Below the pieces are notes generated by a model, which saw only the letters and a list, made by a program, of their open reading frames with translations, made no database searches and was not told the DNA's origin. Shown piece after piece: positions 2,589 through 5,366 of a DNA stretch of 64,000 nt. Within the stretch, counting starts at the first letter, position 1; each line of letters starts with the position of its first letter. Source of the DNA: Thermococcus sp. (lineage in GTDB: Archaea; Methanobacteriota_B; Thermococci; Thermococcales; Thermococcaceae). The stretch spans positions 1 to 64,000 of the forward strand of contig NZ_WANV01000041.1 of the NCBI RefSeq assembly GCF_015521605.1, in the 5' to 3' direction. The translations under genes were made by a program, and so were the position numbers.

Positions 2589-3259
2589 GAATTGTGACTA
2601 TTGACGGGCGATATTAGAATAATAAAAGTAAGAGTTAAAATAGCAACTTTAATAAAAAGTTAAAACTTGAATATTTTAGTTGTTATGTAAATATAACATT
2701 TAAATTCAAAACAAAAATACTGTCTAAAAAGGTAAAAAATTCAAAAAATTTACTATCGCAGAAAATTAATCATGCCAAAAAGCACCCAAAAGGCACACGG
2801 CTGGTGCTTGGAGTATGACATTATCACGAAAACTTTCATTAAGGCAGAATAATAATCATAGATCTCGACCGAACAGACAAAAGATGGGTTACAATCGAAA
2901 GTGGTCATCTGCCGTGAGGGTATAGGCATGCATGCTTACGCTAAAGACATCAGAAAGGCCCAAGAACCGGGGAACACGATTACTGAACCTCTGGACGACA
3001 GGGGGTATTTATACCGGTGCCATTCTGTTACACCGTTTGCAAGTCACAGTGGGGACAGGCAACCCACATGCGGCGTTCTAGGGCACTGCTATCCACAAGA
3101 AGGCGTGCCGAAATCACAGTTGGGAGAGACGGCCGTTTGAGGAAAGCCACCGTGATCTCTCCCCCAAGGGCAGGCAGCCACAGGGGATGATTACGCATCT
3201 TCATATTCGGGAATCCATTCTACCTGCGCGTGCCGTGGACGGCCCTTTAAATGTCCAGC

Positions 3260-3302
3260 TTGGTGCACCAAAATTAGATATAATGTGCATTATATCTAAT
3301 TT
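3260..3302. repeat. Two adjacent palindromes at the centre of the island
   Basis: Positions 3260-3271 are the perfect palindrome TTGGTGCACCAA. Sharing its last base, 3271-3302 form an inverted repeat with perfect 15-base arms (left arm AAATTAGATATAATG) around a 2-base TG spacer. It lies within 30 bases of the midpoint of the island. It could extrude as a cruciform or bind a dimeric protein. The core AATGTGCATT recurs in a smaller form at 3728-3743. Confidence 0.85.
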
Positions 3303-3727
3303 ACGTAGACATAAAAGTGCATTGAAAGGGCGGGCGGTGGGCTGGTGCTTTTGAGTAGATCGCAGAACCTGAGTCCACAACCAGCAGTCTGCAGGCACTA
3401 TTCACAAGGAGCGGAGGTGGTATGGACCATTCACTGCCGCCGTTATTTAAGACGTACCGTGAATCTAACTGAAATTCAACCCCCGGCACTAGTCCCAGAA
3501 GACCTATCTGGGGCCCACTTGTGAGTGTGATATCAGCATACACACATAGCTTTGCCGGGGTAGAACCGTTGGAATTCCCACCGGCACGCGCCAACCCATT
3601 ATAACCACCTTTAATCGTAATCCAATTTTGTGACATAGATGCCCGCTCTCACAACTCAAAATACCACATTCTGGAAAAGACCCAGTGGAGGCCAGGTGAT
3701 CTAGGTCACTGCAGCCACAATCCCCCA

Positions 3728-3743: not shown

Positions 3744-3927
3744 GCCATAATTACTGTACAGAATAGTTAAAAATCCAAAAATATTAACATTTTTAACAGT
3801 AATTTTAATGTCATCAATTTGCCAACTAATAAAAACGTCTTTAAATTGTGTTATATAAATTTGATAAAATATTTAAAAATTCCATTTTAAAAAATATTTT
3901 TGCAAGAACTTTTAAAAGTAAAAAATA

Positions 3928-3955
3928 ACCGAAAAATTTGAGAGTGAATCTGCAC
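3928..3955 (-). repeat. Right imperfect terminal inverted repeat
   Basis: Read on the minus strand, this begins TGTGCAG, then 5 bases, then CTCTCAAATTTTTCGGT, and so mirrors the left repeat at 2557-2588. It ends about 55 bases past the purB stop side of the island. Confidence 0.5.
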
Positions 3956-4010
3956 ATTGGGACAAGATATAAAAACAGGAGGAGACAACCGAGAAAAAGA
4001 ATCTAAACCC

Positions 4011-5366
4011 TCAGACGCCTTCTCTCTGCTCTTTCTCCTCTATCCATGCGATTACGTTATCGACTATCCGCGGTGCCATGCCTACGTACTTCTCCGGCTT
4101 CAGGCTCTCAAAATCGCCATCACTCAGGAACTTTTTCACGTCTCCGTTTTCTCTGGCAAGGGTCATCAGGTCTCTGTTCTCTCTGAACGCCCGCATAGCA
4201 AGCCTCCTGACGAGTTCATGCGCCTCCTGTCTCCCCATTCCCCTTTCCGTCAGCTTCAGCATCAGCGGCTCGGCCATGATGAGGTTGTTGGTCATGTAGA
4301 GGTTCCTCTTAATGTTCTCCGGGAAGAACTCCAAACCGGCGAGAACCTTCTTAATGCTCTTGAGCATCTCGTCAAGGAGGACGAAACTCTCCGGAAGGAT
4401 GACCCTCTCAACGGAGGAGTTTGTGAGGTCTCTCTCGTGCCAGAGGGGGTTGTTCAGCAGCGCGGGGATCACGTTCGAGTAGAGAACCCTCGCCAGACCG
4501 CTCACCTTTTCACTCCTGATGGGATTCCTCTTGTGCGGCATGGTCGAAGAGCCGACCTGTCTCCTCCCGAACGGCTCACTAATCTCAAGTATCTCCGTTC
4601 TCTGGAGGTTCCTTATCTCGAGAGCGATCTTGTCGAGGGTCGAGGCTATGAGCGCCAAAACCATCATAAGTTCCGCGTAGACGTCGCGCTGGATTATCTG
4701 GTTGCTTATCCTGGCAGGTTTCAGCCCGAGATCCTCCATAACGAGGCGCTGTATCTCGATGCCCTTATCGCCAAAGCTCGCCATCGTCCCAACTGCGCCG
4801 CTCATCTGACCAACCAGAATCCTTTCCTTCAGCTCCTCTATCCTGTCCAGGTGCCGCTGTATCTCATCGAGCCATATCGCAAACTTCATGCCGTAGGTCG
4901 TCGGGACCGCGTGCTGGCCGTGGGTCCTTCCTATACAGACGGTGTACTTGTGCTCTCTGGCGAGGTTCTTGAGGATTGAGCGTATCTCCTTGAGGTCGTC
5001 CTCGACTATGGCCAGGCTCTCCTTTATTAGAAGGGCGTTGGTGGTGTCTATTATATCGTTTGAAGTTGCTCCCAGATGGACGTACTTGCCGTGCTCGCCG
5101 CATACCTCGCTCAGGGCCTTGACGACCGCCATTATATCGTGGTGTATCTCGGCCTCTATCTCCTTGACGCGCTCCACTTTGACCCACTTAGTGTTGGCCC
5201 TCTCAGAGATTACCCTGGCGCTTTCTTCAGGGATGTTGCCGAGCTTTGCGTGTGCCCGGGCCAGGGCCGCCTCAACATCGAGAAGCTTTTGGAGTTTATT
5301 CTCCTCGTCCCAGATGCGCCTCATTTCCTCGCTTCCGTAGCGGTAATCAATGGGATGAACGGCCAT
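4011..5366 (-). CDS. purB: Adenylosuccinate lyase
   Basis: This enzyme of purine synthesis splits SAICAR to AICAR and adenylosuccinate to AMP, each with release of fumarate. The 451-aa protein shows the fumarase/aspartase superfamily blocks in order: an N-terminal RYGSEEM, the substrate-binding [10 protein letters not shown] and LGATSNDI segments, the catalytic-His region [10 protein letters not shown], and the signature loop [11 protein letters not shown]. An upstream in-frame extension exists up to 5537 but is unlike the family. ATG 5366 gives the usual [12 protein letters not shown] start and follows CCTGGTGATA. It stands alone, divergent from alba, and ends beside the 1.4 kb island. Confidence 0.96.

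Follow-up and report, generated by a model that had tools for sequence, protein, structure and literature searches.

A conserved non-coding island in Thermococcus is centred on a palindrome that is almost certainly the chromosomal dif site

The window, i.e., the whole 64-kb stretch of DNA analysed, is the start of contig C41 in a 2.03-Mb draft genome of 42 contigs, which its genes and its relatives assign to Thermococcus. About 1.5 kb of it, between a DUF134/PRK04217-type protein gene (2100-2462, + strand) and purB, encoding adenylosuccinate lyase (4011-5366, - strand), contains no convincing gene; both flanking genes point toward this island and are supported by synteny. The palindrome AAATTAGATATAATG-TG-CATTATATCTAATTT (3271-3302) has two perfect arms of 15 bases around a 2-base centre. 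The original prediction had singled out such arms and spacer as rare, and they are: this is the only inverted repeat of the window with arms of at least 13 bases and a spacer of 0-6, and the analytic chance expectation for a 15+2+15 repeat is 6e-5 per 64 kb. An adjoining 12-bp palindrome, TTGGTGCACCAA (3260-3271), which has one base in common with the large one, had also been put forward. It is indeed perfect, but it is not unusual, with 21 perfect 12-bp palindromes observed in the window against 14 expected, and compared with relatives the stretch is fully palindromic in the present genome only. It was therefore discarded as a feature in its own right. It is a chance palindrome, overlapping the conserved left proximal accessory half-site described below.

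Sequence comparison indicated that the large palindrome is almost certainly dif, the site at which the recombinase XerA would resolve chromosome dimers in this Thermococcus. The dif core (3273-3300) is made of a left arm ATTAGATATAA (3273-3283), a 6-bp spacer TGTGCA (3284-3289) and a right arm TTATATCTAAT (3290-3300), and the 15+2+15 palindrome corresponds to dif plus two symmetric A/T bases flanking each side. The 11-bp inverted arms are close to TTRGATATAA, as expected for the dif layout. The core aligns with the dif site of P. abyssi (ATTGGATATAATCGGCCTTATATCTAAA), which XerA binds and recombines in vitro (PMC2958812), with the same arms and the same 11+6+11 layout. Searches recovered a homologous core from 76 genomes of this order, Pyrococcus-type sites included, always one per genome, and the window's own genome carries it in a single place when up to 3 mismatches are allowed. 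The site lies between genes, is conserved at orthologous positions throughout the order, and adjoins purB in nearly all relatives of the genus according to synteny. Its host encodes one XerA (C41:138275-139063), which scores 303 bits against NF040815 (cut-off 220) and whose closest PDB entry is P. abyssi XerA (4a8e, 8e-116). In 21 complete genomes, dif lies 110-152 degrees from cdc6 (the present genome being a 42-contig draft), a range overlapping the published one of 122-142 degrees. Given the shared core, the purB neighbour, the distance to cdc6 in complete relatives and the cognate XerA gene, we therefore identify the site as dif, and the dimer-binding site for a resolvase offered as one option by the original prediction takes the form of a XerA/dif chromosome-resolution site.

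The position relative to cdc6 also bears on another option, namely that the island centre is a replication origin or binds a replication initiator. The island is symmetric, non-coding, single-copy and flanked by AT-rich DNA, which would suit an origin, but cdc6 marks the origin in Thermococcales and is far from dif in all 21 complete genomes, so that an origin or initiator site here is extremely improbable.

Arm symmetry, the absence of which in relatives had been named as refuting, is present. Fully symmetric 10-bp arms were found at 38 of the 76 sites, where shuffling of the arms predicts 24.9; 2 of 2,000 shuffles, a procedure that ignores relatedness, reached 38. Changes in one arm are often mirrored in the other (TTAGATATAA/TTATATCTAA, TTGGATATAA/TTATATCCAA, TGTCATATAA/TTATATGACA), but the other half of the sites have imperfect, asymmetric arms, each arm still keeping the XerA consensus, so pairing itself is not the conserved property. 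These figures weigh on the reading that the palindrome is extruded as a cruciform or hairpin, in DNA as a nicking site or in RNA as a structured element. Such a reading draws on the perfect 15-bp arms and their AT-rich surroundings, and is nonetheless very unlikely given the asymmetric arms, such as TTTCCTATAA/TTATATCCAA, at half of the sites. An Rfam search of the region gave nothing above threshold, and its sole sub-threshold match lies elsewhere. Imperfect arms in half of the sites argue instead for protein recognition of each arm; neither the cruciform nor the nicking site that had been proposed is supported.

With the palindrome read as dif, its 2-base centre could be traced to the spacer. 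The most common spacers among the 76 sites are TGTACC (n=28) and TGTGCC (n=17), and the first and last spacer bases are unpaired at 72 of them. None of the 76 spacers is a complete palindrome. The last base is C in every one of the 28 TGTACn spacers, while TGTGCA was seen once, in the present genome and in no other sampled dif site; it is the most symmetric kind seen. The 2-base centre thus reflects a C-to-A change in the 6-bp spacer of the present genome: since the last spacer base is A, the symmetry of the arms carries on into the spacer, leaving the central T/G pair as the sole asymmetric one. From this one case, an A at the last position may perhaps be allowed only when the central pair holds the asymmetry. 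Because TGTGCA is found at no other sampled site, the present dif may also have reduced activity or fidelity. The polarity of the spacer relative to purB varies by species (23 versus 17, present genome excluded). Inversion of the whole island was considered as the cause and rejected, as the outer arms remain collinear; the polarity flip is therefore local.

Conservation at this locus extends beyond the dif core. Conserved flanks of approximately 23 bp, together with inverted repeats around dif, were already noted in seven genomes (PMC2958812), so dif and the existence of flanking repeats are known. Alignment of 54 non-redundant loci on dif showed that conservation reaches about 43 bp to either side, forming an 86-bp dyad with the rightward consensus AAT-n4-GnACA-n5-GnnCATTnAAA and its mirror image leftward. 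Information peaks up to 1.2 bits, compared with a control mean of 0.044 and a control maximum of 0.225. In the window, the extended dyad (3242-3331) has 44-nt arms that are 73% complementary and end in GCCCTTTnAATG and CATTnAAAGGGC, and it agrees with the consensus at most informative positions (3251-3256, 3262-3266, 3307-3311 and 3317-3322). Each side carries two putative accessory half-sites. On the left (- strand), the proximal one is GGTGC (3262-3266, positions -25 to -21, consensus TGTnC) and the distal one, 10-11 bp further out, is ATGTCC (3251-3256, -36 to -31, consensus ATGnnC). On the right (+ strand), AGACA (3307-3311, +21 to +25, consensus GnACA) is followed 10 bp further out by GTGCAT (3317-3322, +31 to +36, consensus GnnCAT). 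With a spacing of 10-11 bp, the two half-sites of a side would therefore lie on one face of the DNA. That the conserved unit runs to 43 bp on either side as half-sites resembling protein sites is a further point against a cruciform. The half-site spacing and the extent of the dyad, as read from the alignment, are resolved in the present analysis; neither the spacing nor the motifs and island layout described below appear in the main text and legends of PMC2958812.

On a larger scale, a non-coding island of about 1.4 kb, conserved and with motifs of its own, is centred on dif. Motif M (ACYACCTTTAATYGTAAYC) is found 174-1,181 bp from dif, and frequently each side has a copy. Its right copy in the window reads ACCACCTTTAATCGTAATC...TTTTG (3604-3655, + strand); its left copy, ACCACTTTCGATTGTAACCCA (2877-2905, - strand), is inverted and weaker (E 0.002) and has the position expected from relatives. 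Motif T (TCTCTCAAATTTTTGGGYGAATT) forms an outer inverted repeat 517-903 bp from dif, represented here by TCTCTCAAATTTTTGGGTGAATT on the left (2539-2598, + strand) and an inverted copy on the right (3918-3958, - strand, E 8e-6). AT-rich blocks, at 2626-2775 (19% GC) and 3751-3900 (17% GC) in the window, lie approximately 500-900 bp either side of dif in relatives, near motif T. In scans of 61 whole genomes, all 53 matches to motif M in genomes with a located dif were within 1.2 kb of it, and all 35 matches to motif T within 0.9 kb. M and T matches also pointed to diverged dif sites (TTTGATATAA and TGTCATATAA arms) in three genomes that had yielded none before. Since M and T are confined to dif and lead to diverged dif sites, both motifs are part of the dif locus. 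Their matches are strong in the genus Thermococcus and weak in other genera. The orientation of motif M on the right side differs between species, so it is probably not a direction signal. The original prediction had placed the palindrome within 30 bases of the midpoint between terminal repeats. This holds in the window, where the midpoint of the repeats at 2572-2602 and 3914-3944 is 3258, 28 bases from the palindrome, but the relation is loose in relatives, whose outer repeats are unequally distant from dif (490-936 bp on one side and 518-1,068 bp on the other).

Two side observations concern the island borders. At the outer end of the left motif T, ahead of TCTCTCAAATTTTTGGGTGAATT, lies a TTAGG-N5-CCTAA inverted repeat (2539-2553), conserved on the DUF134 side only and possibly a transcription end signal of the DUF134 gene. 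In one 1.5-Mb genome (G023, locus L081, around 4000), several kb of unrelated-looking genes lie on both sides of dif, and purB and DUF134 are displaced 2.5-4 kb from it.

Terminal inverted repeats and an atypical composition could also be the marks of a mobile element, with the palindrome as its attachment site or terminal structure and the island as a MITE-like insertion, and some relatives do have cassettes inserted at dif. The island, however, occurs once per genome, in one consistent place beside purB throughout the genus, and its own genome contains no further copy; searches against phages and plasmids gave no match. A mobile-element origin of the palindrome or island is accordingly most improbable.

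The cassettes of relatives are a distinct matter. In G027, G030, G031 and G073, two genes directed away from dif abut one dif arm (L084:3787-4951, L087:2637-3711, L088:4327-5405 and L143:2814-3970), the start of gene 2 being approximately 23-80 bp away from the middle of the dif core. Among 94 genomes of the order, 8 carry gene 2 or remnants of it, with a dif core close to the matched stretch in 8 of 8, and the dif beside gene 2 usually has a changed arm, e.g. TTATATGACA. At least six further genomes retain gene 1, for the most part without gene 2; gene 1 had no family match. The gene 2 product is nuclease-like: residues E174, D183, E194 and K196 are invariant, giving an E...D...ExK pattern, and the strand order of its full-length models, which are of low confidence, matches the alpha-beta-beta-beta-alpha-beta core of PD-(D/E)xK enzymes. 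Pfam gave sub-threshold DpnII-MboI matches only, and a Foldseek search with these weak query models gave no support. No homologues of gene 2 were found in viral contigs, and the cassette proteins had no match in PADLOC or PHROGs. Our preferred guess is that gene 2 encodes a nuclease targeting intact dif. If the cassette always adjoins dif, it would, as far as we know, be the first report of a selfish element at dif in archaea; in the literature searched we found no description of this cassette or of the dif-exclusive motifs M and T. The possibility that the core of the window is a graveyard of such cassettes was rejected, as the present genome has no detectable remnant.

Some pairs of genomes share one inner arm of the dif locus and not the other. 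For example, the left arm of G033 (L089) is as in G019 (L078, 84%) and its right arm as in G022 (L080, 83%), with a purB identity of 91%, and the left arm of G018 (L077) matches the right arm of G020 (L079) at 77%. One-sided DNA at dif thus appears to have been swapped between lineages, and even between sides, while purB is still approximately 84-91% identical. In a linkage control on pairs sharing adjacent blocks, agreement was 0.73 on the left, 0.37 on the right and 0.33 across dif. A breakpoint exactly at dif is therefore suggested and not proved, because linkage within a side is strong on the left and not on the right.

In the mechanism that we propose, homologous recombination would fuse two chromosomes into a dimer carrying two dif copies. 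Two XerA monomers would occupy each site, one per 11-bp arm, and the partial palindromy would be a consequence of the same protein sitting on each arm. XerA would then pair both copies, cut at the edges of the 6-bp spacer, where its cleavage has been located (PMC3646895), and exchange strands to give two monomers; the residual asymmetry of the spacer, here the central T/G pair only, would align the sites in the resolving orientation. XerA needs no partner in vitro, and most archaea lack an FtsK homologue (PMC2958812), which raises the background question of how FtsK-less archaea restrict Xer recombination to real dimers. The best candidate sites for the binding of partner proteins, which would control a synaptic complex, a chromosome-domain boundary or both, are the half-sites, M, T and the AT-rich blocks. 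We tentatively put forward, at somewhat less than even confidence, a composite locus of about 1.4 kb with putative protein-bound, dif-exclusive motifs, also invaded by a nuclease-like cassette and with one side swapped between lineages. Motifs that dozens of species carry at dif and nowhere else provide handles for catching partner proteins, and allow asking whether dif is a chromosome-domain boundary.

Compared with known systems, the site shares with the described Thermococcales dif/XerA its 11+6+11 layout, TTRGATATAA arms, single copy and, judging from complete relatives, a position in the late-replicating half of the chromosome, as well as conserved flanks rich in A/T and inverted repeats around the site, there in 7 genomes (PMC2958812); it differs in its TGTGCA spacer. 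The bacterial dif/XerCD system (E. coli, FtsK-dependent) likewise uses a 28-bp site in which 11-bp arms enclose a 6-bp spacer, whereas the archaeal site has one recombinase on both arms. In T. kodakarensis, TrmBL2 reportedly stalls SMC at dif, forming a domain boundary (according to a 2025 report in Nat Commun); this is the same type of locus, which would make the AT-rich island a candidate bound region. The cassettes of relatives recall IMEX such as LME-1 (PMC9765430), in which foreign DNA is also joined to a dif arm that is modified. Unlike IMEX, the archaeal cassettes encode no recombinase and have no second dif at the far end: no second copy was found at the cassette-bearing dif loci examined. 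They are therefore not standard IMEX, and look more like a nuclease-driven (homing) insertion.
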